Shown one piece after another: positions 7,722 through 61,553 of a DNA stretch of 64,000 nt. The notes beneath the pieces are model-generated. The model was not told the origin of the DNA, ran no database searches, and saw nothing but the letters and a program-made list of their open reading frames with translations. This DNA is from Bacillus nitratireducens (GTDB lineage Bacteria; Bacillota; Bacilli; Bacillales; Bacillaceae_G). Positions within the stretch are counted from its first letter, which is position 1. Every line of letters starts with the position of its first letter. The stretch lies in assembly GCF_001884135.1 (NCBI RefSeq), contig NZ_MAOC01000086.1:1-64000 (forward strand), read 5' to 3'. The translations under genes were made by a program, and so were the position numbers.

Positions 7722-9121
7722 AGGGGTTAAATGAAGAATGTGGCGTTTTCGGAATTTGGGGGCATGAAAATGCAGCACAAGTTTCGTACTACGGATTGCA
7801 TAGTTTGCAGCACCGTGGTCAAGAAGGCGCAGGCATCGTCGTAAATAATGGGGAAAAAATCATCGGTCACAAGGGGTTAGGTTTAATATCAGAAGTGTTT
7901 TCAAGAGGTGAGCTAGAAGGATTAAACGGAAAATCGGCAATTGGACACGTACGATATGCGACGGCTGGTGGAAGTGAAGTTGCTAATGTTCAACCATTAT
8001 TATTCCGCTTTTCCGATCATAGTATGGCGTTAGCTCATAACGGAAATTTAATTAACGCAAAAATGCTTCGCCGTGAATTAGAGGCGGAAGGAAGTATTTT
8101 TCAAACTAGTTCAGATACAGAAGTACTTTTACATCTCATTAAACGTAGTACGAAAGATTCTTTAATTGAAAGTGTAAAAGAAGCTCTAAATAAAGTGAAA
8201 GGTGCGTTCGCATACCTTTTACTAACTGGAAATGAAATGATTGTTGCGCTAGATCCGAATGGATTCCGTCCTCTTTCAATTGGAAAGATGGGGGATGCTT
8301 ACGTTGTAGCATCAGAAACATGTGCTTTTGATGTAGTAGGTGCAACATACATTCGTGATGTAGAACCTGGTGAATTACTTATCATCAATGATGAAGGAAT
8401 TCACGTAGATCGTTTTACAAATGAAGTAGATCATGCAATTTGTAGTATGGAGTACATTTACTTTGCACGTCCGGATTCTAATATTGCAGGTATTAACGTC
8501 CATGCAGCACGTAAAAACATGGGAAAACGTTTAGCGGCGGAAGCACCTATTGAAGCTGATGTTGTTACTGGTGTACCAGACTCTAGTATTTCAGCAGCAA
8601 TTGGTTATGCGGAGGCGACAGGCATTCCATATGAGTTAGGACTAATTAAAAATCGTTACGTTGGACGTACGTTTATTCAACCTTCTCAAGAACTGCGAGA
8701 GCAAGGGGTTAAGATGAAACTTTCAGCAGTAAGAGGTGTAGTTGAAGGAAAACGAGTTGTTATGATTGACGATTCTATCGTAAGAGGAACAACAAGTAAA
8801 CGAATTGTTCGTATGCTTCGTGAGGCTGGAGCGACAGAAGTTCATGTAAGAATTGCTTCACCACCTCTTAAATATCCATGCTTCTATGGTATTGATATTC
8901 AAACGAGAAAAGAATTAATTGCAGCAAATCATACAGTAGAAGAAATCCGTGAAATAATCGGTGCAGATTCACTAACATTTTTAAGTGAAGATGGATTAGT
9001 AGATGCAATTGGACGTCCATATGAAGGGAAATATGGCGGTCTATGTATGGCTTACTTCAATGGTGACTATCCAACAGCTCTTTATGATTATGAGCAAGAG
9101 CTTTTAGAAAGTATGAAATAA
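7706..9121 (+). CDS. purF: Amidophosphoribosyltransferase
   Basis: First committed step: PRPP plus glutamine to phosphoribosylamine. An 11-residue propeptide precedes Cys12 (NEECGVFG), which becomes the N-terminal nucleophile after processing, as in B. subtilis PurF. The C-terminal half carries the phosphoribosyltransferase PRPP motif [14 protein letters not shown]. Cysteines in the C-terminal half (for instance CFYGID and LCMAYF) fit the Fe-S form of the enzyme. I chose ATG 7706; a TTG at 7688 would overlap the ribosome site. The start lies inside the purL 3' end, and the mature enzyme is 460 residues. Confidence 0.97.
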
Positions 9122-37555: not shown

Positions 37556-37596
37556 TATAAAGAGAAAACATTGTATAGAAAAGGATGGGGTACACA

Positions 37597-38961
37597 ATGA
37601 ACACAAAAAAATTTGCTAAAGTAAATGAACAAATTCCAGGACCGAAAGCAGCGTCTTTATTAGAACGCCGCCAAAATATAGTACCAAAAGGAGTAAGTAA
37701 TGGTATTCCAACATTCGTACAGTCTGCAGATGGAGCTCTTGTAACAGATGTTGATGGTAATCAGTACATTGATTTTGCAGGAGCGATAGGGACAATTAAC
37801 GTAGGACATTGTCATCCAGCTGTTAAAGAAGCACTTCATAAACAAGTAGATCAATATATTCATACGGGATTTAATGTCATGATGTATGAGCCATATATTG
37901 AATTAGCGGAAAAGCTTGCTGCATTAGCGCCAGGAAGTTTTGATAAACAAGTCCTGTTTTTAAACAGTGGTGCAGAAGCAGTTGAGAATGCGGTGAAAAT
38001 CGCTCGTAAATATACGAAGAGACCTGGGATTATCGCATTTTCTAAAGGGTTTCACGGGCGTACATTAATGACAATGACGATGACAAGTAAAGTAAAACCA
38101 TATAAATTTGGATTTGGCCCATTTGCTCCAGAAGTATATAAAGCGCCATTCCCATATGAATACCGTCGTCCAGAAGGATTAACAGAAGAGCAGTATGATG
38201 ATTTTATCATTGAAGAGTTTAAAAACTTCTTCATATCAGAAGTAGCACCAGAAACAATTGCAGCTGTTGTAATGGAACCTGTTCAAGGGGAAGGTGGATT
38301 TATCGTTCCAAGTAAGAAATTTGTTCAAGAAGTACGCAGCATTTGTTCAGAGCACGGTATTTTATTTGTAGCGGATGAAATTCAAACAGGCTTTAGTCGT
38401 ACCGGAAAATACTTTGCAATTGATCATTATGATGTCGTTCCAGATTTAATTACGGTTTCTAAATCATTAGGTGCTGGTGTACCGATTAGTGGTGTTATTG
38501 GCCGTAAAGAAATTATGAATGAGTCTGCACCGGGAGAACTGGGCGGAACGTATGCAGGAAGCCCACTAGGATGTGCGGCTGCATTAGCAGTACTTGATGT
38601 AATAGAAAAAGAGAATTTAAATGATAGAGCGATAGAAGTAGGAAAAGTCGTAATGAGCCGATTCGAAGAGATGAAAAATAAATATAATTGCATTGGTGAT
38701 GTGCGCGGTTTAGGAGCAATGTGTGCATTTGAGCTCGTTCAAGATCGTAAGACGAAAGCGCCTGACAAAACATTGGCAGCTAATTTATGTGCGGAAGCAA
38801 ATAAACGCGGATTACTTCTACTATCAGCAGGAACATATGGAAATGTTATTCGTGTGTTAATGCCATTAGTTATTACAGATGCGCAGCTAGAGGAAGGTTT
38901 AACAATAATTGAAGAATCATTGCAAGCTTGTTATGAGCAAGCAAACATCGCTCGTGTTTAA
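37597..38961 (+). CDS. gabT: 4-aminobutyrate aminotransferase
   Basis: 454-aa class III PLP aminotransferase that moves the amino group of GABA to 2-oxoglutarate, giving succinate semialdehyde. Seen: LNSGAEAVENAVKIAR (cofactor phosphate), FHGRTLMTMT, the Asp of FVADEIQTGFSR and the PLP lysine in TVSKSLGAGVP (near residue 291). I chose ATG 37597 behind AAGGATGGGG rather than ATG 37585 inside the ribosome site. It is transcribed from a sigma-54 promoter, and neighbours gabD and a permease complete the GABA shunt. Confidence 0.96.
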   Translation: MNTKKFAKVNEQIPGPKAASLLERRQNIVPKGVSNGIPTFVQSADGALVTDVDGNQYIDFAGAIGTINVGHCHPAVKEALHKQVDQYIHTGFNVMMYEPYIELAEKLAALAPGSFDKQVLFLNSGAEAVENAVKIARKYTKRPGIIAFSKGFHGRTLMTMTMTSKVKPYKFGFGPFAPEVYKAPFPYEYRRPEGLTEEQYDDFIIEEFKNFFISEVAPETIAAVVMEPVQGEGGFIVPSKKFVQEVRSICSEHGILFVADEIQTGFSRTGKYFAIDHYDVVPDLITVSKSLGAGVPISGVIGRKEIMNESAPGELGGTYAGSPLGCAAALAVLDVIEKENLNDRAIEVGKVVMSRFEEMKNKYNCIGDVRGLGAMCAFELVQDRKTKAPDKTLAANLCAEANKRGLLLLSAGTYGNVIRVLMPLVITDAQLEEGLTIIEESLQACYEQANIARV

Positions 38962-39015
38962 AAACTAAATTATAAATCGCAAACATTCTAGCTTACTCTA
39001 TATAAAATGCAGAAA

Positions 39016-39047
39016 ATTCACTTTATAATAAAGGTAGTAAAGTGAAT
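39016..39047. promoter_or_regulatory. Inverted repeat over the -10 of the activator gene
   Basis: ATTCACTTTA (39016-39025) / TAAAGTGAAT (39038-39047) brackets TATAAT at 39024-39029. A plausible autoregulatory site. Confidence 0.5.
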
Positions 39048-39076
39048 CGATGGATATGAAGTAGGGAGTGGCTAGG

Positions 39077-40459
39077 ATGGTTGCAGAAAAGGAACGAGTG
39101 TTGATGGATTTACAAGATGTATTTGAATATGCATTTGACGAAATTTTTGTTACAGATGATAAAGGAATCGTTGTGCGTGTAAATAGTATGTGTGAAAGAC
39201 ATTACCAGCTCTCTGCTAAGGAATTAGTAGGAAAGCATGTAAAAGAACTACAAAAAGAAGGGATTTTTTATCCGTCTGCAACGTTAGAAGTAATTGAAAA
39301 GAAAAGGCCAGTTGAACTTGTTCAAACAACGAAATCAGGAGAGTATTTGCATGTTCGTACAAGACCTGTTTTTGATGATGAGGGAAATTTAAGAAGAGTG
39401 ATTAGTTATTCCCGAGATCTTACAGAACTCTATCAATTACGTCAAAAGGTAGAGGAAATGGATAATCAGTTAAAAACATATAAAAAGGAATTAAGAGAAA
39501 CATATGAACACGAAGGACTTATTTTTAAAAGTATCGCTATGCAAAAAATAGTCGAAACAATCAAAAAAGTATCTGTGGTGGATAGCACTGTTCTCGTATT
39601 AGGTGAGACGGGAGTAGGAAAAAGCCGATTAGTACGCCATTTGCATGAAGTAAGTCACCGGAAGAATGAAAGTTTCTATGAAATTAATTGTGCGGCATTG
39701 CCGACGAATTTAATTGAATCAGAGCTTTTTGGATATTCAGGTGGGTCTTTTACAGGGGCAAATCGTGAAGGGAAAAAGGGATTACTAGAATCAGCACATA
39801 AAGGGACCCTTTTCTTAGATGAAATTGGTGAAATGCCGCTTGAAATTCAAGCGAAGCTTTTGCAAGTATTACAGGAGAAAACATTTCGGCCGGTAGGAGG
39901 AAGAGACTTAAAAAAAGTAGACGTTCGTATAGTCGCGGCTACGAATAGAGATTTAAGTAAAATGGTAAAAGAGGGAACATTTAGGAAGGATTTGTATTAC
40001 CGCCTAAATGTAATCCCAATTTCAATTCCTCCGCTTCGTGAAAGAACAGAAGATATATTACCGTTAGTCTATCATTATTTACAGCACTTTAATAAAAAGT
40101 ATGGACGTGATGTGAAGCTAGCTCCTAGTACGTTACAAATGTTTGTAGGGTATTCATGGGAGGGAAATAATAGAGAGATAGAAAACGTAATCGAGAGGAT
40201 TGTTATAACTGCTGACGATGTTATCACGATAGAAGATTTACCGATATCGATGCAGGAGTCTACAGTTGAGCAATCGGGTCAAAGTCTCTATAAAATGTTA
40301 GAAGAAGTGGAACGAAACATTATCTTAAAAACATACAAAACACATGGATCCAGTTATAAAGTCGCAGAATTCTTGAAAATAAGCCAATCTGCTGCTACTA
40401 GGAAAATTAAGAAGTTTATAGAGGAGGATTATATAGTTGGAGGAGAAGAAGGAACTTAA
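39077..40459 (+). CDS. gabR: Sigma-54-dependent activator of the gab genes (PAS-AAA-HTH)
   Basis: 460-aa enhancer-binding protein. An N-terminal PAS domain (about residues 15-110) senses the signal. The AAA+ domain has Walker A GETGVGKSR (near 178), the sigma-54 contact loop GSFTGA (GAFTGA variant) near 222, and Walker B GTLFLDEIGEM. A Fis-type HTH lies at the C-terminus (SSYKVAEFLKISQSAATRKI). A role in activating the nearby gabT promoter is inferred from position and agrees with the sigma-54 control reported for the B. thuringiensis gab cluster. ATG 39077 is preferred to GTG 39068. Confidence 0.9.
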   Translation: MVAEKERVLMDLQDVFEYAFDEIFVTDDKGIVVRVNSMCERHYQLSAKELVGKHVKELQKEGIFYPSATLEVIEKKRPVELVQTTKSGEYLHVRTRPVFDDEGNLRRVISYSRDLTELYQLRQKVEEMDNQLKTYKKELRETYEHEGLIFKSIAMQKIVETIKKVSVVDSTVLVLGETGVGKSRLVRHLHEVSHRKNESFYEINCAALPTNLIESELFGYSGGSFTGANREGKKGLLESAHKGTLFLDEIGEMPLEIQAKLLQVLQEKTFRPVGGRDLKKVDVRIVAATNRDLSKMVKEGTFRKDLYYRLNVIPISIPPLRERTEDILPLVYHYLQHFNKKYGRDVKLAPSTLQMFVGYSWEGNNREIENVIERIVITADDVITIEDLPISMQESTVEQSGQSLYKMLEEVERNIILKTYKTHGSSYKVAEFLKISQSAATRKIKKFIEEDYIVGGEEGT

Positions 40460-41846
40460 AAAAGTGCTATCACGTTTTGATGTTCTTTTCCTTGCGATAG
40501 GCGCCATGCTTGGATGGGGTTGGGTTGTACTCTCAGGGGATTGGGTTACATCGGCTGGTTCTATAGGGGCAGTTATTGCTTTCGTTATAGGAGGATTACT
40601 TGTTATTTTCGTTGGACTAACATATGCTGAACTTGCTTCTGCCATGCCGGAAACAGGCGGTGGTTTACTATATGTAAAAAAAGCATTTGGGAAAAAATCA
40701 GCATTTATCGCATCGTGGGCAATGGTACTTGGATATGTATCAGTTGTTACTTTTGAAGCTGTTGCTTTACCAACAGTGGTAGATTATATACTGCCAAATT
40801 ATCAAAGTATTTATTTATGGACGATAGGAGGTTGGGATGTATACTTGACGTGGGCGATGATTGGAATGGGCGGGGCATTACTTATTACAATCATTAACTA
40901 CTTTGGTGTCAAAACAGCCGCTGTATTTCAAAGTATATTTACAATATTTATTGTAGCGACGGGCATTATGCTCGTTTTTGGATCTAGTTTTAACGGGGAT
41001 ACAAAAAATTTAGAGCCATTTTTTATAAATGGTGCAGGCGGAGTAATGGCTGTCCTTATAATGGTTCCATTTCTGTTTGTCGGATTTGATGTAATCCCGC
41101 AAGTAGCGGAAGAAGTGAATCTTCCGTTTAAAGAAATTGGAAAACTTTTAATATTCTCTGTTGTTTGTGCGGTCGTATTCTATCTACTTATTACAGTTGG
41201 AGTTTCGATGGCATTAGATCAAAATGCACTCTTGAATACAAAATTGGCAACTGCTGATGCGATGGGAGCAGTATTTGGATCGAAAATATTTGCGAATATT
41301 TTAATCTTTGGCGGGTTAGCTGGAATTGTTACAAGTTGGAATGCTTTTATTATTGGAGGTAGTCGTGTGTTATATGCGATGGCTAAAAATGAAATGATTC
41401 CAGCTTGGTTTGGAAAAGTACATCCGAAATATAAAACACCTACTAATGCGATTATGTTCCTAGGGATGTTATCATTTTTTGCTCCGTTACTTGGAAGACC
41501 AGCACTTGTATGGATTGTAAATGCAGGTGGACTTGGGATTGTTGTTTCATATTTATTAGTTAGTTTATCATTTTTAAAGTTACGCAAAACAGAACCTAAT
41601 ATGGCTAGACCGTTTCGCGTGAAGAATGGAAAAGTAGTCGGGAGTATAGCAGTAATATTAAGTATTGGTTTTATTTTATTGTATATGCCAGGGATGCCTG
41701 CTGCATTAATTTGGCCGTACGAATGGCTAATGGTGTTAGGCTGGACGATTTTAGGTGGTTATTTCTTTATGAGAATGCTGTTTGATAAGTATAAGAACAA
41801 TTCTAATGAGAATGAAGATATAGAGGAGGAAGAAAACATTGGATAA
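40437..41846 (+). CDS. APC-family amino acid permease (probable GABA permease)
   Basis: 469-aa membrane protein with about 12 hydrophobic helices and the APC-type N-terminal motif FLAIGAMLGWGWVVLSGDW. A charged tail with an acidic run closes the protein. TTG 40437 lies 9 nt after GAGGAGG, and the gene overlaps the activator by 23 nt and gabD by 8 nt, so it is part of the gab operon. GABA as substrate is inferred from the cluster. Confidence 0.85.
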   Translation: MEEKKELKKVLSRFDVLFLAIGAMLGWGWVVLSGDWVTSAGSIGAVIAFVIGGLLVIFVGLTYAELASAMPETGGGLLYVKKAFGKKSAFIASWAMVLGYVSVVTFEAVALPTVVDYILPNYQSIYLWTIGGWDVYLTWAMIGMGGALLITIINYFGVKTAAVFQSIFTIFIVATGIMLVFGSSFNGDTKNLEPFFINGAGGVMAVLIMVPFLFVGFDVIPQVAEEVNLPFKEIGKLLIFSVVCAVVFYLLITVGVSMALDQNALLNTKLATADAMGAVFGSKIFANILIFGGLAGIVTSWNAFIIGGSRVLYAMAKNEMIPAWFGKVHPKYKTPTNAIMFLGMLSFFAPLLGRPALVWIVNAGGLGIVVSYLLVSLSFLKLRKTEPNMARPFRVKNGKVVGSIAVILSIGFILLYMPGMPAALIWPYEWLMVLGWTILGGYFFMRMLFDKYKNNSNENEDIEEEENIG

Positions 41847-43290
41847 AAAAGCGACGTTCGTAAACTTAGAGAAAAAGGCGATGTATATAAATGGTGAGTG
41901 GATTACACTGCAAGAACAAATCGAAGTAAATAATCCAGCGACAAAGGAAGTATTTGCAACTGTGCCAAAGGGCGGGATTACAGAGGCAAAGCAAGCAGTT
42001 GATGCTGCACATGAAGCTTTTAAATCATGGTCAAAATTAACTGCAGCAGATCGCGCAGTTAAGTTGAAAAAATGGTTCACACTCATTGATGAAAATAAAG
42101 AAGAAATTGCAGCAATTATGACGAGAGAACAAGGAAAGCCGTTTGCAGAAGCACTTGGTGAAGTAAATTATGCAAATAGTTTTGTTGAATGGTACGCAGA
42201 AGAAGGAAAGAGAGTATACGGTGAAATGATTCCTGCTTCTCATCCGAATAAACGTATTTTAGTTATAAAGCAACCAGTTGGGGTTATGGCAGCTATTACA
42301 CCATGGAACTTCCCAGCTGCTATGATTACGAGAAAGGTAGCTCCAGCGCTTGCAGCGGGCTGTACAGCGGTTGTGAAACCAGCGAGCCAAACACCATTAA
42401 CGGCATTGAAGTTAGTTGAATTAGCACATGAAGCAGATATTCCAAAAGGTGTAATAAATATTGTAACAGGTAGTGCAAAAGCAATTGCTGATACGTGGAT
42501 GGAAGATGAGCGTGTTCGAAAGGTTTCCTTTACAGGATCAACTGAAATTGGGAAAGAATTAATGGCTAGCGCTGCACAAACGATGAAAAAGGTTTCACTT
42601 GAGTTAGGTGGTCATGCTCCATTTATTATTATGAATGATGCTGATTTAGATAAAGCGGTAGAAGCGGTAATCGGTTCGAAATTCCGTAACGCAGGACAAA
42701 CGTGTATATGTACAAACCGCGTCTTCGTTCAAGAAGCAGTGTACGAAGAATTTGCAGGAAAGTTCACAAAAGCTGTAGAGCAGCTTAAAGTTGGGGACGG
42801 ATTCGGTGAAGGAACAACTGTAGGTCCACTTATTGATGCGAATGCAATTTCGAAAGTACAAGAACATATTGAAGATGCAATTCAAAAGGGTGGAGAAGTT
42901 TTATACGGTGGCCATAAATTTGCAGAGTTAGATGGATATTTCATTCAGCCAACAGTAATTGGATTGGCAAATGACACGATGCTTTGTATGAATGAAGAAA
43001 CATTTGGGCCGGTTGCACCAGTCGCTAAATTTAAAACGGTTGAAGAAGTAATCGAACGCGCAAATAATACACCATATGGCTTGGCTGCTTATATTTTCAC
43101 AAAAGATATTAGTCAGGCATTCCAAATTAGCGAAGCATTAGAGTACGGAATTATCGGCTTAAATGATGGACTTCCATCAGTTGCACAAGCACCATTTGGT
43201 GGCTTTAAAGAAAGTGGTATCGGCCGTGAAGGAGGCCATTTCGGTATCGAGGAATATTTAGAAATTAAATATATTTCGTTAGGGCTATAA
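41839..43290 (+). CDS. gabD: Succinate-semialdehyde dehydrogenase
   Basis: 483-aa aldehyde dehydrogenase that oxidises succinate semialdehyde to succinate. Seen: TPWNFPAAM (near residue 155), NAD-fold FTGSTEIGKEL, general base Glu in LELGGHAPFI and catalytic Cys in NAGQTCICTNR (near 288), where the paired cysteines are typical of GabD. The start is TTG 41839 after GAGGAGG; ATG at codon 15 is a weaker alternative. It completes the GABA to succinate route with gabT. Confidence 0.94.
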   Translation: MDKKATFVNLEKKAMYINGEWITLQEQIEVNNPATKEVFATVPKGGITEAKQAVDAAHEAFKSWSKLTAADRAVKLKKWFTLIDENKEEIAAIMTREQGKPFAEALGEVNYANSFVEWYAEEGKRVYGEMIPASHPNKRILVIKQPVGVMAAITPWNFPAAMITRKVAPALAAGCTAVVKPASQTPLTALKLVELAHEADIPKGVINIVTGSAKAIADTWMEDERVRKVSFTGSTEIGKELMASAAQTMKKVSLELGGHAPFIIMNDADLDKAVEAVIGSKFRNAGQTCICTNRVFVQEAVYEEFAGKFTKAVEQLKVGDGFGEGTTVGPLIDANAISKVQEHIEDAIQKGGEVLYGGHKFAELDGYFIQPTVIGLANDTMLCMNEETFGPVAPVAKFKTVEEVIERANNTPYGLAAYIFTKDISQAFQISEALEYGIIGLNDGLPSVAQAPFGGFKESGIGREGGHFGIEEYLEIKYISLGL

Positions 43291-55577: not shown

Positions 55578-56273
55578 CTATCGTCCAAACTTCACAACGA
55601 AATCTCCATCCACTTTCTCCATCTCATATCCACGATACCCCTCTGAAAGTAACGTTTGCTTTTCACTAACATCACTCATCGGAACATCTTTAATATCCGT
55701 CCAATTGTTTTCTTTATCCCCACGCAATTCCTTCACAAAAACATACCGCATACTACCACCATACTTCTCCTTCAATGCAGCAATTTCCATCCCTTGCGCA
55801 AATTTATCCTTTAAACTAGGAATGTTAAAAGGTGCAACGGTGCAGCAAACATAATCATATTTGCTGTCTTCTTTTTGTAATTCATCCATAATGACTGTGG
55901 CTAATATTTTTTGCATCCCATTTCCTCGGCAGTTCGGATGAACGTTTGATATTTCTTGATAGATGACGCGGTGTAGTTCGTTTTCTGATAAGCCAATATC
56001 AAGTCCTAAATGTTCATCATCAATAGGAGGGACGAGCAGGGCACGAAATGCGATGAGTTCGTTTTCGATAAAAGCACCGATCATCATGCCGTTTCCTTCT
56101 AGAATGTATTGAAATTCTTCCAGTGAGAGCGGTTGTAAACGACCTTTATCTTCTAATGCTTCAACTACAACATTTTGTAATGATAAAATTTGTTCCATAT
56201 GTTCTAAAGATAGTAATGTAACGTGAAATGGATCGTTATTTTGTTTTAATGTTCCTTCGTATAGAACTGTCAT
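55578..56273 (-). CDS. GNAT-family N-acyltransferase (candidate N-succinyltransferase)
   Basis: 231-aa GNAT fold. The acyl-CoA pyrophosphate loop is in VHPNCRGNGMQKILA (R-G-N-G, near residue 115), with a preceding beta strand IAFRALLVPP. It lies 14 nt downstream of the racemase gene in the same operon. In Geobacillus a GNAT enzyme of this kind succinylates D-amino acids for the racemase (family knowledge). The same role here is inference. ATG 56273 has AAGGAGG at good spacing. Confidence 0.82.
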   Translation of the reverse strand: MTVLYEGTLKQNNDPFHVTLLSLEHMEQILSLQNVVVEALEDKGRLQPLSLEEFQYILEGNGMMIGAFIENELIAFRALLVPPIDDEHLGLDIGLSENELHRVIYQEISNVHPNCRGNGMQKILATVIMDELQKEDSKYDYVCCTVAPFNIPSLKDKFAQGMEIAALKEKYGGSMRYVFVKELRGDKENNWTDIKDVPMSDVSEKQTLLSEGYRGYEMEKVDGDFVVKFGR

Positions 56274-56287
56274 GTGTTAGTCCTCCT

Positions 56288-57397
56288 TTAGCGTACAACG
56301 TCTTGAAAGACGATTAGTTCTTGTAATGTATCTTCGTTTATTTCAATGCCGAGTCCTGGCTTTTCGTTTAAGCGAATGAATGGTACGTCGTAATGTAAGT
56401 TCCCGATGTCTTTCGTGAACTTTAATGGTCCTGTAAGTTCGACGCTCGTAATGATTTTTTTCGAGAAAGCGACATGGAATCCTGCAGAAGAGGCAACGGA
56501 TGATTCGACCATGGATCCAACTTGGCATTCAATGCCTGCCATTTCAGCTTGATGAGCGAGTTTTACAGCGGGATATATGCCGCCGCATTTCATTAGTTTT
56601 ATATTTACTTTATCAGCTGCGTCTAATTTAATAATTTGGCGCATTTCACGAGAGCCTTTTAATCCTTCATCAATCATGAGCGGAAGGTCTGTTTTATAAC
56701 GAATATGAGCCATTGCGTCAATATCATCCGCTATAACAGGTTGCTCAATCCAATCGATGTTTAAATGTCCTAATGAACGAAGTGCCGTTAATGTGTTTGC
56801 GCTATTTTTCCACCCTTGGTTTACATCAACGCGAATCGCGATATCACTTCCTACACGTTCACGTACTGCTTCAATTCGTTTTACATCTTCTTTTACATTT
56901 GTACCGACTTTCATTTTGAAAGATTGGTAACCTTTCTGAATCATAGAGACAGCTTCTTCAGCCATGTCTTCTGGGTCTGCGATACTTAAGACGTGAGTGA
57001 CAGGAAATTCTTCATGGTAGCGCCCGCCAATTAATTGATATACAGGTTGGTTTAATTTTTTGCCCATTATATCAAAACAAGCAATATCTATCGCAGCCTT
57101 CGCAGTAGGTACACCGTAAATTGTATTGTCCATCATATCGTGTATTTTCTCGATGTTCATTGGATTTTGTCCAATGAGCGTAGGAGCTAGTGTATGTTTT
57201 AAAGTATGGAAAGTACTTTCCCATGATTCGCCTGTAACGTGATCATCAGCAACGCCTTCACCGTAACCGATAACGCCGTCATTTGTTTCCATTTTGATGA
57301 TAATAGAAGGCATATCAGAATAAGAACCATAACTAATAACAAACGGATCGCGAAGCGGTAAACGAATTGCATAAAGGTGAATAGCTGTAATTTTCAT
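56288..57397 (-). CDS. N-succinylamino acid racemase (Arg/Lys type), enolase superfamily
   Basis: 369-aa member of the MLE/dipeptide-epimerase subgroup. The catalytic pair is K161 and K267 (SFKMKVG, VNIKLMK), with K163 as the second Lys of the KxK motif, and D191 (RVDVNQGW), E218 (WIEQP) and D243 (MIDEG) are the metal ligands. The whole sequence agrees closely with my memory of the B. cereus protein BC0371, which was shown to racemise N-succinyl-Arg/Lys. N-succinyltransferase and deacylase genes nearby strengthen this. It could be annotated wrongly as L-Ala-D/L-Glu epimerase. Confidence 0.9.
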   Translation of the reverse strand: MKITAIHLYAIRLPLRDPFVISYGSYSDMPSIIIKMETNDGVIGYGEGVADDHVTGESWESTFHTLKHTLAPTLIGQNPMNIEKIHDMMDNTIYGVPTAKAAIDIACFDIMGKKLNQPVYQLIGGRYHEEFPVTHVLSIADPEDMAEEAVSMIQKGYQSFKMKVGTNVKEDVKRIEAVRERVGSDIAIRVDVNQGWKNSANTLTALRSLGHLNIDWIEQPVIADDIDAMAHIRYKTDLPLMIDEGLKGSREMRQIIKLDAADKVNIKLMKCGGIYPAVKLAHQAEMAGIECQVGSMVESSVASSAGFHVAFSKKIITSVELTGPLKFTKDIGNLHYDVPFIRLNEKPGLGIEINEDTLQELIVFQDVVR

Positions 57398-57449
57398 TGG
57401 GTAGAGACCCCTTCCTGTTTACAATAGTTTTGTACATTTGATATAGTTG

Positions 57450-57470
57450 ACGTTAAATAGTCGTTAATTA
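57450..57470. promoter_or_regulatory. Direct-repeat operator candidate
   Basis: Two CGTTAA hexamers (57451-57456 and 57462-57467) are spaced by 11 bp, one helical turn, in the 92-bp divergent gap between the racemase and regulator genes. Confidence 0.4.
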
Positions 57471-57489
57471 ATGATAAGGAGTTAGAGAA

Positions 57490-58761
57490 ATGATGATAAA
57501 AATTGCAGTTGTCGGTTCAAAGGAGTTTATGGAGAATCTTTTGCCTATTGCTCATAAACTAGAAGAAATAGAGATTGATCCATATATTTACCTTCATCCG
57601 GCGGAATCTTCGGAACTTTTAAAGCGTTTAAAGCCTTGTGATTTCATCTTTTTCTCAGGTGCTTTACCTTATTATATGGCAAAAGAAATAAGAGAACAAT
57701 TAAGAATTCCAAGTACGTACTTACAGCAAGACGAGGCAACTGTCGCATCTTCCATTCTTTCTGTCATGTATCACCAACGTATTCAACCACATAAAATTTC
57801 AATTGATTTAGTAGACCGCTCATTCATTATAAATGTGTTCCATGATATCGGTATAAAAGAAAGTCCACAAGTGTTTGATTATGAAAATATGCTTTGGAGT
57901 AAAGATGAGATAAAGAGAGTTATTGATTTTCATGTAGCTAAATATCAATCTGGAGATGCTCATTTAGCTTTAACTAGTATTCACGCTGTCTATGATGAAC
58001 TTCAAAAAATAGGTATTCCTTCAGAGCGTATGATAGATCCGAAGCAATCCATTATACATGGGTTAAAAGATGCGAAAATAAAAGCTGAGTTAGCAAAAAG
58101 CCATTCAGCTACTGTTGGTGCTTGTATGATTTCTTCTTTAAAATTACGAGAAGGTTTGCTTGAGCAATTAGATGTCATTTCAAAAGAACTACGTGGTTCA
58201 TTTAAAAAAGTTGATGAAATGACGTTCATTTTGTATACGACTCGTGGTGATATTGAATCGATTATAAAAACAAATATGATAAATAATTTATTTGCGAGTA
58301 TAGAAGGAACGATAGCTATTGGATTTGGTTACGGAAAAACTGTGAAGGAAGCAGAGCAAAATGCTAAAATCGCTCAAGGTTTCGCGAAGAATAATCCAAT
58401 AGACCACTGTTTTTATATACTAACAAGTGATAAAGAACTATTTGGTCCGTTCCCGAAAGAACAGAGAGTACAAAGTTTGAAGAATGACAACCCAGAACTA
58501 ATGAAAATAGCGAAGGAAACGAAACTTAGTCCAGCAAACTTGTCAAAAATTATTCAATTTAGTCAATCGCATCCGTCATTGAAGTTTACAGCAGCAGATC
58601 TTTCTGAATACTTACAAGTGACTCGGCGATCAACAGAAAGGTTATTAAAGAAACTAGTTGATTATAGATATGCTCATATTTGCGGCGAGGAAATGCCCTA
58701 TCAACAAGGGCGCCCTCGCGCAATATATGAACTGAATTTACCGTTATCTTTAAGCTTCTAG
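57490..58761 (+). CDS. Multidomain transcriptional regulator (sensor + GGDEF-like + winged HTH)
   Basis: 423-aa protein of unusual build. Residues 1-190 form a Rossmann-like region resembling PrpR-type receiver domains (KIAVVGSKEFMENLLPIA). The central part (about 210-330) recalls a degenerate GGDEF or GTP-cyclohydrolase III fold, with VDEMTFILYTTRGD and AIGFGYGKTVKEAEQNAKIA. The C-terminal HTH (LSEYLQVTRRSTERLLKKLVD) binds DNA. It sits divergently from the racemase, so it is probably its regulator. Its 3' end overlaps the convergent transporter gene by 12 nt. Confidence 0.75.
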   Translation: MMIKIAVVGSKEFMENLLPIAHKLEEIEIDPYIYLHPAESSELLKRLKPCDFIFFSGALPYYMAKEIREQLRIPSTYLQQDEATVASSILSVMYHQRIQPHKISIDLVDRSFIINVFHDIGIKESPQVFDYENMLWSKDEIKRVIDFHVAKYQSGDAHLALTSIHAVYDELQKIGIPSERMIDPKQSIIHGLKDAKIKAELAKSHSATVGACMISSLKLREGLLEQLDVISKELRGSFKKVDEMTFILYTTRGDIESIIKTNMINNLFASIEGTIAIGFGYGKTVKEAEQNAKIAQGFAKNNPIDHCFYILTSDKELFGPFPKEQRVQSLKNDNPELMKIAKETKLSPANLSKIIQFSQSHPSLKFTAADLSEYLQVTRRSTERLLKKLVDYRYAHICGEEMPYQQGRPRAIYELNLPLSLSF

Positions 58762-60171
58762 TTGAGCCTTTTGTTTTTTTAGTAGTTCTGCTTTTTCAAT
58801 ATCTGATAGTTTCGTAATTGTGAGACCAGTTATGCCGTAAATGATTGAAATAATAGGTACGATGAAATTCAATATAGCATAAGGAGCATATTCGAATGCG
58901 CCAACTCCAAGTGTTGCGAGTATGAATACACCACATGTATTCCAAGGTACGAAAACAGAAGTTAATGTTCCGCCATCTTCTAATGCTCTGGATAAATTTT
59001 TAGAATGTAGTCCTTTTTCTGTGTATGCATTTGCGTACATTCTTGAGGGAACAACAATCGAAATATATTGTTCAGAGCAAGTAAGATTTGTTGCAAAGCA
59101 AGATGCGATAGTAGAAGCGATAAGTCCTTTTGCTGATGTCGCTAATTTTAAAATTTGATTTACAATTGAGCGAAGAATACCAGTATGTTCTAGTACTCCT
59201 CCGAAAGTCATAGCAACAATTGTCATAGAAACTGTATTCATCATCGAATCTAAGCCACCGCGGTTAAAGAGTTCGTCTACTAGCTTGTTTCCAGTGTCTA
59301 TGACAAATCCATTTTGGAGTGCACCGACAGATGCGGAGACAGAACCGCCTTGAATAAAGACTTGTGATAAGAATCCTAAAATAATACCTACAAGAATAGC
59401 TGGTATAGCAGGAACTTTTTTAGCGACCAATACCATAACGACTACGGGTATGATTAATAGGAAAGGCGAGATAACAAAGTTTTGTTGCAATACTTGTAAT
59501 GTTTGCTCTATGCTTTTTGCATCAATATTGTTAGCGCCAAAGCTTCTTCCTAAGAACGCATAAACGATAAGAGTAATAATTAAACCTGGAATTGTAGTAA
59601 ATAACATATGACGAATATGTGTGAATAAATCTGTATTTGTTAATCCTGCGGCTAAGTTTGTTGTGTCTGAAAGCGGTGACATTTTATCGCCGAAATAAGA
59701 ACCGGAAATGATAGCACCGGCAACCATTGGAGCTGGGATTCCCATACTTAGGCCAATGCCCATTCCTGCAACACCAATTGTTCCCATTGTAGACCAAGAG
59801 CTACCGATAGCTAATGCAACAATAGAACAAATAATTGTAATTGAGACTAAAAATAGTGATGGAGTTAAAAGATTTAAACCGTAATAAATCATTGTTGCGA
59901 CGATTCCGCCGCCAATCCAAGCACCGATCGTTAAACCTACTAGAATAATGATAACGATAGCGGGTAATGCGAGGCGAATTCCTTTATACATTGCTTCTTC
60001 AATGTCGTTCCATTTGTAACCGTAACGCCAGGCAACGATAGAAGCAACGGTTGTACCGATAATAAGTGGGACGTGAGGGCTTTGTTTTAATACAACAATT
60101 GTAACCATCATAACTGCAACTGTAATGATAATAGGGATTATTGCTACGCCAAAAGGTATTTCTTTTTTCAT
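58750..60171 (-). CDS. NhaC-type Na+/H+ antiporter family transporter
   Basis: 473-aa membrane protein with about 11-12 helices and NhaC features such as WSTMGTIGVAGMGIG, ISGSYFGDKMSPLSDTTNLA (family signature) and SCFATNLTCSEQYISIV. Family members exchange Na+ for H+, and some move amino acids or organic acids (malate/lactate). Because it lies in a D-amino acid cluster it might import or export a basic amino acid; this is inference. I chose ATG 60171, 7 nt after AGGAGG; the 66 upstream residues of the longer frame have no ribosome site. Confidence 0.85.
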   Translation of the reverse strand: MKKEIPFGVAIIPIIITVAVMMVTIVVLKQSPHVPLIIGTTVASIVAWRYGYKWNDIEEAMYKGIRLALPAIVIIILVGLTIGAWIGGGIVATMIYYGLNLLTPSLFLVSITIICSIVALAIGSSWSTMGTIGVAGMGIGLSMGIPAPMVAGAIISGSYFGDKMSPLSDTTNLAAGLTNTDLFTHIRHMLFTTIPGLIITLIVYAFLGRSFGANNIDAKSIEQTLQVLQQNFVISPFLLIIPVVVMVLVAKKVPAIPAILVGIILGFLSQVFIQGGSVSASVGALQNGFVIDTGNKLVDELFNRGGLDSMMNTVSMTIVAMTFGGVLEHTGILRSIVNQILKLATSAKGLIASTIASCFATNLTCSEQYISIVVPSRMYANAYTEKGLHSKNLSRALEDGGTLTSVFVPWNTCGVFILATLGVGAFEYAPYAILNFIVPIISIIYGITGLTITKLSDIEKAELLKKQKAQLEA

Positions 60172-60437
60172 AAACTGCCTCCTCATTATGTATGTTTGTA
60201 TTTTTAGAATTGTCGCAAAATAGACGTTTATTAAGTTATAATAACTAAAAATACATGTAAGCGTCAATAAAAAACAGAAAATAAGGAATGTTCTATCTGT
60301 ATAAAGTGAGTTGTCGATAGTATTTAAAAATAAATAATTGACTTTTTTCTTAAAATTCAATATGTTCATAAAAACATCTGTTTTTCATAAGTATAATTAA
60401 CCTGAATGGTTTGTAATTTGGGAAGGAGAATGTGGCT
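60172..60437. promoter_or_regulatory. Divergent promoter region (transporter / M20)
   Basis: Minus-strand promoter: TTGACG (complement near 60265) with TATAAC 18-20 nt on. Plus-strand promoter: TTGACT near 60339 and TATGTT 17 nt further. Direct repeats like those at 57451 are not obvious. No small gene is seen. Confidence 0.45.
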
Positions 60438-61553
60438 TTGAAAACATTAGAACTACAAGAGCGTTTAATGGAAATTTTTCAGCATTTGCATGAAAACCCT
60501 GAAGTGAGTTGGAAAGAGTATGAAACGACAGCGTATATTACTAACTTTTTAAAAGAAGAAGGAATTTCATATAAAACATTTGATGATTGTCCAGGCGTAA
60601 TCGCTGAAATCGGAAGCGGGAACCCAGTTATTGCGATTCGTGCTGATATGGATGCACTATGGCAAGAAGTAGACGGAGAATTTAAACCGAATCATTCATG
60701 TGGTCACGATGCTCATATGACGATTGTAATGGGTCTTATTTTACAATTGAAAAATATGAGATGGGATAGTGGAACGGTTAGATTTATTTTTCAACCGGCA
60801 GAGGAAAAAGGAAATGGTTCTTTAAAGATGGTAGAGAAAGGCGCCGTGGATGATGCTGATTTCTTATTTGGTGTTCATTTAAGGCCGATTGAAGAACTGC
60901 CTTTGAAACAAGCTGCCCCATCTATTCGTCACGGAGCAGCAGGATTTTTAGAAGGGTTGATTCACGGAGATGATGCACATGGGGCACGCCCGCATCAAGG
61001 GATAAATGCGATTGATGTCATCACGATGATTAATATTGGATTGAAAAATATATGGCTACCACCGCAGACGTCGTATTCTGTTAAGATGACGAGATGCCAA
61101 GCTGGTGGTGATAATCTAAATATTATTCCAGGTAACGGACATTTTAGTTTAGATGTAAGAGCAGAAAATAACATATTACTAAATGAATTAAAGCAAAAAA
61201 TAGAGCAAGTAATTCAGTCAGCTGAATCAATGGGATCTAAACTTTCTTATGAGTGGATTGATCTTGCACCAGGGGCTGAAGTGTCAGAAGAAGCTGAGCG
61301 CTTTATGCGTAAAGGTATTCTTGAAGTGTATGGGGAAGAGGGATGTACTGGACCACTGTATACGACAGGAAGCGATGATTTCCATTACTACACAGTGAAG
61401 AGGCCACATTTAAAAGCTGTCATGCTTGGACTAGGGGCAAACCTACAACCTGGATTACACCATCCGTATATGAAGTTTGACCATTCTTGCATAATGGATG
61501 GAGTAGAAATATTGAAACAAACTGTATTGAAAGTATTAGAAAACAGGGGCTAG
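60438..61553 (+). CDS. M20-family amidohydrolase (candidate N-succinyl-amino acid desuccinylase)
   Basis: 371-aa M20D-type deacylase. Metal ligands and catalytic acids are in CGHDAHMT (near residue 94), FIFQPAEEKGNG (EE near 122) and FLFGVHLRP, with a lid domain from about 170-285. Members remove N-acyl groups from amino acids (aminoacylases, hippuricase). With the racemase and GNAT genes it would release the free L-amino acid. TTG 60438 lies 9 nt after AAGGAG; GTG 60432 is only 3 nt away and less likely. A terminator overlaps its stop. Confidence 0.85.
   Translation: MKTLELQERLMEIFQHLHENPEVSWKEYETTAYITNFLKEEGISYKTFDDCPGVIAEIGSGNPVIAIRADMDALWQEVDGEFKPNHSCGHDAHMTIVMGLILQLKNMRWDSGTVRFIFQPAEEKGNGSLKMVEKGAVDDADFLFGVHLRPIEELPLKQAAPSIRHGAAGFLEGLIHGDDAHGARPHQGINAIDVITMINIGLKNIWLPPQTSYSVKMTRCQAGGDNLNIIPGNGHFSLDVRAENNILLNELKQKIEQVIQSAESMGSKLSYEWIDLAPGAEVSEEAERFMRKGILEVYGEEGCTGPLYTTGSDDFHYYTVKRPHLKAVMLGLGANLQPGLHHPYMKFDHSCIMDGVEILKQTVLKVLENRG

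Follow-up and report, generated by a model that had tools for sequence, protein, structure and literature searches.

The closest described relative of the system treated here is the N-succinyl-Arg/Lys racemase of Bacillus cereus ATCC 14579 (PDB 2p88, 2p8b, 2p8c), whose activity is in print as a docking-based prediction and which Song et al. 2007 reportedly assayed on N-succinyl-Arg/Lys. The chemistry around it recalls the Geobacillus-type pathway, said to have been described by Sakai et al. 2006, in which a GNAT acyltransferase, an NSAR/OSBS racemase, and an M20 deacylase act together; further points of comparison are the PrpR-type sigma-54 activators (2pju, 2q5c) and the NhaC/ArcD/YfcC-type antiporters. 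Here we analyze a 64,000-nucleotide stretch of Bacillus nitratireducens DNA (contig NZ_MAOC01000086.1, positions 1 to 64,000; the window) in which five genes at 55578–61553 encode a GNAT acyltransferase, such a racemase, a divergent regulator, an NhaC-family transporter, and an M20 deacylase (Table 1).

The window racemase is the same enzyme as that of B. cereus: along its entire length it shares 354 of 369 residues (counted from the alignment) with 2p88, reported to be an N-succinyl-arginine racemase, and it scores 800 bits against that structure, a match that would put the window in the B. cereus group. The available passages on the B. cereus enzyme do not mention the partners, operator, and regulator found here, and no description of a regulator, operator, or partners of this racemase was found in the open-licence literature searched. 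The three enzyme types are those of the Geobacillus-type pathway, and the M20 is 45–47% identical to its counterparts there, but the racemase of that pathway belongs to the TIGR01928 branch and is just ~24–27% identical to that of the window.

Our results suggest that the cluster quite probably forms a module for the D-to-L salvage of basic amino acids (D-Arg/D-Lys) under local control. A D-to-L salvage function had been proposed in a first-pass annotation of the window, and it is supported at the sequence level by the co-occurrence of the genes, the identity of the racemase to 2p88, and the kinship of the M20 to those of NSAR/OSBS loci. The transporter, or its substitute in relatives, would import D-Arg/D-Lys or a related compound, and the GNAT would transfer a succinyl group from succinyl-CoA onto the D-amino acid; the racemase would interconvert the N-succinyl-D and N-succinyl-L forms, as published for the B. 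cereus enzyme, to which it is 96% identical, and the M20, to go by the Geobacillus scheme and its M20 kinship, would strip succinate from the L-form only. Net D-to-L conversion would be one-way because the M20 would act on the L-form only. This type of pathway has been described before; the novelty lies in the regulator and its operator.

Conservation of the cluster and its enzymes

All five genes that the first-pass annotation had placed within 6 kb were found. The GNAT and racemase genes lie on the minus strand, the regulator gene is divergent from the racemase gene and tail to tail with the transporter gene, and the M20 gene is divergent from the latter. Ribosome-site spacing makes 60171 the most likely transporter start rather than that of the longest open reading frame (60369), and for the M20, TTG 60438 is a possible start in place of GTG 60432. 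For comparison we used the best 80 of 209 confirmed stretches from a racemase search of genome contigs, all from other species; the racemases of these loci, in other Bacillales, are 68–80% identical to that of the window. In tblastn searches with the window proteins, the GNAT was located near the racemase in 78 loci, the regulator in 70, the transporter in 59, and the M20 in 44. Recurrence of the same neighbors around 80 racemases at this level of identity is more than chance, and the co-occurrence outside the group that the first-pass annotation had named as a check is thus borne out. The two loci lacking the GNAT are L022, whose contig stops just past the racemase, and L026, which yielded none of the four partners. 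As a second sample, which overlaps the first (e.g., L002 in G001, L007 in G126, and L063 in G113), we used 249 genomes drawn evenly from a single order; it held 16 racemase matches of at least 65% identity, 15 of them with a GNAT nearby, and in G219 an extra gene is inserted between the two.

Some loci depart from this picture. One labeled Arthrobacter (L030) carries a Sporosarcina-like module with a 71% identical racemase and is mislabeled, contaminated, or the product of transfer. Transposase-like genes, recognized by eye, split the regulator from the racemase in L056 (8284–9849) and the racemase from the GNAT in L160 (12797–14020).

The catalytic set that the first-pass annotation had read in the racemase (K161/K163-D191-E218-D243-K267) is present and invariant in all 81 sequences (the window and the 80 loci). 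D51 is likewise invariant in 81 of 81, and position 52 is E (65 sequences) or D (16); this acidic pair may possibly read the basic side chain. In B. cereus ATCC 14579, this racemase is presumably encoded by BC0371. In a SigB-related comparison, a table row gives BC0371 at −0.6 (PMC9912610).

The M20 family call was upheld by PF01546 and TIGR01891, both above cut-off, and by C90, H92, E124, E125, H149, and H343, which are kept in 45 of 45 M20 sequences; the nearest solved M20 enzymes score just 126 and 119 bits against the window protein. Its 45–47% identical counterparts stand beside TIGR01928 (NSAR/OSBS-type) racemases in four of five Anoxybacillaceae regions, the fifth (L169) having menaquinone-type genes; gene names at these NSAR/OSBS loci, and at the paralogue and second-type loci below, were given by eye unless a Pfam or NCBIfam family is stated. 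Within shorter flanks, an M20 was present at 9 of 15 TIGR01928 racemase loci. In a tree of 30 M20 proteins, that of the window groups with those of L001, L002, and L007 (97/99), next to the other module M20s (84/81); the NSAR/OSBS M20s are neighbors of the module M20s, with the deeper order unsure and the branches long.

The GNAT assignment is less direct. Taken alone, the window protein (P0002) matches no Pfam or NCBIfam family at 1e-3, nor any Pfam family even at 0.5. Relatives matched Acetyltransf_9 in 9 of 46 cases and Acetyltransf_1 in 9 of 46 (best E value, 7.2e-5; 46 of 79 sequences were used for the alignment), and the profile matches PDB 1mk4 "yqjY," which we take to be a GNAT, at an E value of 7.9e-4. 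The GNAT call of the first-pass annotation therefore holds through relatives and profile and not through the window protein by itself, whose GNAT membership is weakly supported.

Table 1. Genes and predicted control elements of the cluster in the window
Feature	Position	Strand	Basis or remark
GNAT-type acyltransferase (proposed D-amino acid N-succinyltransferase)	55578..56273	−	Directly downstream of racemase in 78/80 loci; GNAT matches of relatives
N-succinyl-Arg/Lys racemase (enolase superfamily)	56288..57397	−	PDB 2p88 match; catalytic set
Predicted regulator promoter	57418..57447	+	TTTACA, 18 bases, TATAGT; 10/12 consensus positions
Operator 1, TTAACGACTATTTAACGTCAA	57447..57467	−	Between regulator and racemase; 32.3 bits
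Regulator, 423 residues	57490..58761	+	Predicted model; PDB comparison; Pfam of 46 relatives
NhaC-family transporter	58750..60171	−	TIGR00931; PF03553; longest open reading frame reaches 60369
Operator 2, TAAACGTCTATTTTGCGACAA	60210..60230	−	Before transporter, between transporter and M20; 21.0 bits
Predicted transporter promoter	60238..60267	−	TTGACG, 18 bases, TATTAT; ends 7 bases before operator 2
M20 deacylase (proposed N-succinyl-L-amino acid desuccinylase)	60432..61553	+	PF01546; TIGR01891; conserved residues

A tandem-repeat operator and its predicted regulator

Placed side by side, the regulator-racemase gaps reveal a direct repeat, TTAACGAC-TAT-TTAACGAC-AA, with an 11-base period. A matrix was built from 64 such gaps (63 loci and the window); sites at transporter promoters, including operator 2, were not used in its training. 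Across 1,608,283 bases, it gave 118 matches of at least 20 bits versus none in one shuffled set and none with the matrix reversed, and only 3 of 125 matches of at least 12 bits fell outside module promoters, one of them (L063) just before a peptide transporter gene. All 70 loci that have the regulator show a site of at least 18 bits in the gap between it and the racemase (63 of these gaps contributed to the matrix); none of the 10 regulator-less loci does. Of the 55 loci that combine the regulator with a full-length transporter, 44 have the operator before the transporter gene as well, and none of these sites is in the matrix. In the window, a search allowing two mismatches returned the same two operators and no other (0.27 expected; two were reached in 1 of 100 shuffles).

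The exact pattern occurs at 18 sites in 13 of the 249 genomes: 13 in racemase modules, 3 beside regulator paralogues (G084, G192, and G044), and 2 elsewhere (G035 and G053), so that 16 of 18 lie at regulator-family loci; read backwards, the pattern gave 6 sites. In 18 chosen genomes, nine exact sites were found in six genomes, all nine within the fetched module loci. A wider regulon is not claimed, since the exact sites are almost confined to regulator-family loci. These counts are a lower bound because the Lysinibacillus spacer form and other variants are missed by the exact pattern, which has no site in G004.

For the regulator, whose ligand had been called undescribed in the first-pass annotation, a predicted architecture and an operator have now been obtained. 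The window protein has no significant match in Pfam or NCBIfam. Its predicted model (predicted local distance difference test, 88.3; predicted template modeling score, 0.70) consists of a PrpR_N-like sensor (residues ~1–205), a nucleotide-cyclase-like domain (~207–325), and a winged helix (~334–416), and a PDB comparison, carried out by reexamining Foldseek's own listed matches, related the part past the sensor to cyclase folds and winged helices. The PrpR_N sensor is shared with PrpR-type sigma-54 activators, from which the window regulator differs in having the cyclase-like domain and winged helix and no sigma-54 ATPase part; no sigma-54 ATPase domain appears among the 25 of 77 Pfam families listed for its relatives, and identity with a PrpR-type sigma-54 activator was rejected for want of this part. 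A catalytic cyclase is unlikely, judged by the residues that nucleotide cyclases require: across 46 sequences (of 71; the set used for the regulator alignments), the middle domain has no Asp or Glu kept in at least 90% except D183 at its edge.

Relatives of the regulator at 1e-20 occur in 82 of the 249 genomes; all 10 matches of at least 350 bits are divergent from a racemase at a distance of 88–111 bases. The paralogue loci that we read were the best-scoring ones (L092–L111, with the larger regions L112–L115, L166, and L167). In 16 of the 20 loci L092–L111, an M20-type, AbgT-type, or YfcC/DcuC-type gene adjoins the regulator by eye, and in 4 it does not; Pfam identified Peptidase_M20 in 9 of 9 tested neighbors and, among tested transporters, AbgT in 5 of 5 and DcuC in 2 of 2. 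The paralogues in L092–L115, with M20 or carbamoylase-type, AbgT, and YfcC/DcuC genes next to them, look like a broad, unnamed Bacillales family. Second-type modules (L112, L166, and L167) combine the regulator with a YfcC/DcuC-type transporter, an M20 (28%), and a 53–61% identical racemase, without a GNAT beside them. The operator repeat recurs in L112, L166, L093–L095, and L097; L167 has none at 15 bits or more. We regard it as an even proposition that the regulator is a member of a family of one-component repressors, as yet unclassified and built from a PrpR_N sensor, a degenerate nucleotide-cyclase fold, and a winged helix, that switch on the scavenging of N-acyl amino acids of either hand across Bacillales, with subfamilies paired with particular M20s and transporters (NhaC, YfcC, AbgT, and peptide ABC), the window member sensing the N-succinyl or D-form of Arg/Lys and acting via the tandem TTAACGAC repeat.

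The placement of promoters bears on the mode of control. Of 46 transporter operators, 44 have a sigma-A-type −10 element that starts 10–13 bases upstream (with the flanks shuffled: mean, 2.7; maximum, 5), which would put the repeat at about +1 to +21; the regulator's own −10 element lies at the far edge of the operator in 59 of 69 gaps (mean, 4.1; maximum, 9), and the repeat would thus cover the regulator start point. A promoter in the racemase direction with its −35 element inside the operator was found in 21 of 69 gaps (mean, 2.9; maximum, 7). All of these counts come from related sequences and are not independent, and the promoter scan behind the window predictions, taken as a whole, yielded no more sites than shuffles did. 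The pattern fits an autorepressor that would also block the transporter and, less clearly, the racemase: the regulator would bind the repeat at its own/racemase promoter and at the transporter promoter, where conservation shows the operator, and would most likely repress these promoters, its own included, until an N-acyl or D-amino acid binds the PrpR_N-like lobe. That it is instead an activator seems improbable. The operator ends 26–50 bases before the racemase start codon, and with an adjoining racemase −10 in so few gaps the layout on that side is not decisive; the cover of the transporter and regulator start points, however, speaks for repression, as does the overlap of the operator with the −35 elements of the racemase promoters that were found.

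Alternatives, substrate, and points against salvage

Other readings of the chemistry also have to be considered. The next best solved relatives of the racemase are dipeptide epimerases (3jva, 264 bits; 1jpm, 227 bits), which raises the idea of a cluster that recycles cell-wall peptides. A D-x-D motif defines dipeptide epimerases; the D-x-D of the B. subtilis enzyme 1jpm aligns with residues 320–322, where all 81 sequences have E-L-T, and together with the much higher score to 2p88 this led us to drop an explanation that is exceedingly improbable. It is possible, though unlikely, that the module scavenges external N-acylated amino acids, the transporter and M20 importing and deacylating them, the racemase opening both enantiomers to an L-specific deacylase, and the GNAT having another role. 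The second-type modules, complete with transporter, M20, and racemase but with no GNAT adjoining, would suit such a role, as would the M20-type amidohydrolases and AbgT transporters beside the regulator paralogues; on the other hand, the GNAT comes directly behind the racemase in 78 of 80 loci, as would suit a pathway that includes acylation. The same chemistry might also serve as protection against D-Arg/D-Lys from competitors rather than feeding, a purpose that we hold to be rather unlikely. An acyltransferase step is a common means of disarming amino compounds, which counts in its favor. Vibrio cholerae, according to PMC10390336, releases D-Arg and D-Lys as signals, and a paper cited there has secreted D-Arg controlling microbial biodiversity. 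On the other side, the transporter, a presumed importer, and the arginase in such clusters suit use as food better.

The Arg/Lys preference given in the first-pass annotation is in line with the identity of the racemase to 2p88 and with the neighbors of some relatives, which are suggestive of basic amino acids. The racemase and GNAT genes of L164 are immediately preceded, on the same strand, by an arginase gene (TIGR01229, 359 bits; cut-off, 228). Eight of the 80 loci, seven from Sporosarcina and one from Psychrobacillus, carry a dimethylargininase-like gene upstream of the racemase at a distance of at most 5.4 kb; family calls on two of the eight put PF19420 over and NF045659 below cut-off. 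Three Lysinibacillus loci have a LysP-like NF008094-type permease (in L059, 705 bits; cut-off, 735) where the transporter is fragmentary or missing, and two second-type transporters match the model of the putative basic amino acid antiporter YfcC at 420 and 408 bits (cut-off, 500). Each of these clues is modest; together, they favor Arg/Lys. The window transporter itself matches PF03553 and TIGR00931 (NhaC; 483 bits, cut-off 370), which confirms the NhaC-family call, and reaches 389 bits with the ArcD arginine/ornithine model NF052307, below its cut-off of 650. Among NhaC/ArcD/YfcC-type antiporters, it is thus over the NhaC and under the ArcD cut-off; at some related loci LysP-like or peptide ABC transporters stand in for it.

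Several observations weigh against the salvage module. Within 10 kb of the racemase, the M20 is missing from 36 of 80 loci, the transporter from 21, and the regulator from 10. Matches to the partners also lie elsewhere: in the 249 genomes, 33 of 44 transporter relatives are away from the racemase and 11 are at it, and 16 of 31 GNAT-relative matches sit away from it, so that the GNAT family is wider than this pathway. Both the NhaC and ArcD models match the transporter, which is thus compatible with more than one substrate; the acyl group is not settled by sequence, and each substrate clue comes from few, partly related loci, seven of the eight dimethylargininase-like genes being from Sporosarcina. 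The operator counts, too, stem from related species and are not independent, and L009, one of two regulator-less loci with a full-length transporter, has an operator before that gene with no close regulator.

The L009 operator (position 8475) scores 27 bits, and the sole regulator relative in that genome is 27% identical; the site may be a relic or be read by another protein.

Apparently exchangeable parts and meaning of the cluster

The enzymes of the cluster also occur in other combinations. L157 unites a P0002-type GNAT (47%), a TIGR01928 racemase (368 bits; cut-off, 201), and an M20 (40%). An M20 and a GNAT gene lie side by side in L154 (4995–6936), with no racemase in the fetched 13.5 kb and none at 1e-120 in the genome concerned (G223). 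The NSAR/OSBS operon of L171 has a GNAT of PF00583; the GNAT type at such loci differs from that of the window, the P0002 profile finding no match at 1e-3 in L169–L173, the L171 protein included. With GNAT and M20 enzymes found alongside differing racemases, the pathway scheme seems to be built from exchangeable parts.

Variants of the surroundings were seen as well. In L063 (1315–8623) and L160 (1288–10107), the module is accompanied by an M81 (MlrC-like) enzyme and an ABC system of the peptide type, and the operator stands before the transporter; this suggests peptide sources and a possible version of the module for D-amino acid peptides. In L018 (5591–13951), the racemase-GNAT pair stands beside cytosine-permease-type transporter, hydantoinase-type, and Amidohydro_3 genes, possibly a hydantoin or N-acyl-D-amino acid version. 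Elsewhere in the window (37585–43290) are apparent γ-aminobutyrate-use genes (an aminotransferase, a sigma-54-type regulator, an amino acid permease, and an aldehyde dehydrogenase), named by eye from their translations.

The racemase, which is otherwise said to be known mainly from a function-prediction study, is here given a physiological context that includes partners, uptake, and a switch of its own. Because some bacteria release D-Arg and D-Lys as signals, a conserved means of using or removing them is of ecological interest. The operator and regulator make control of the pathway directly testable, and further Bacillales clusters with M20, AbgT, and YfcC genes might be assigned with the help of the regulator family. 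The occurrence of related M20 and GNAT enzymes with two racemase branches shows how such pathways get assembled.

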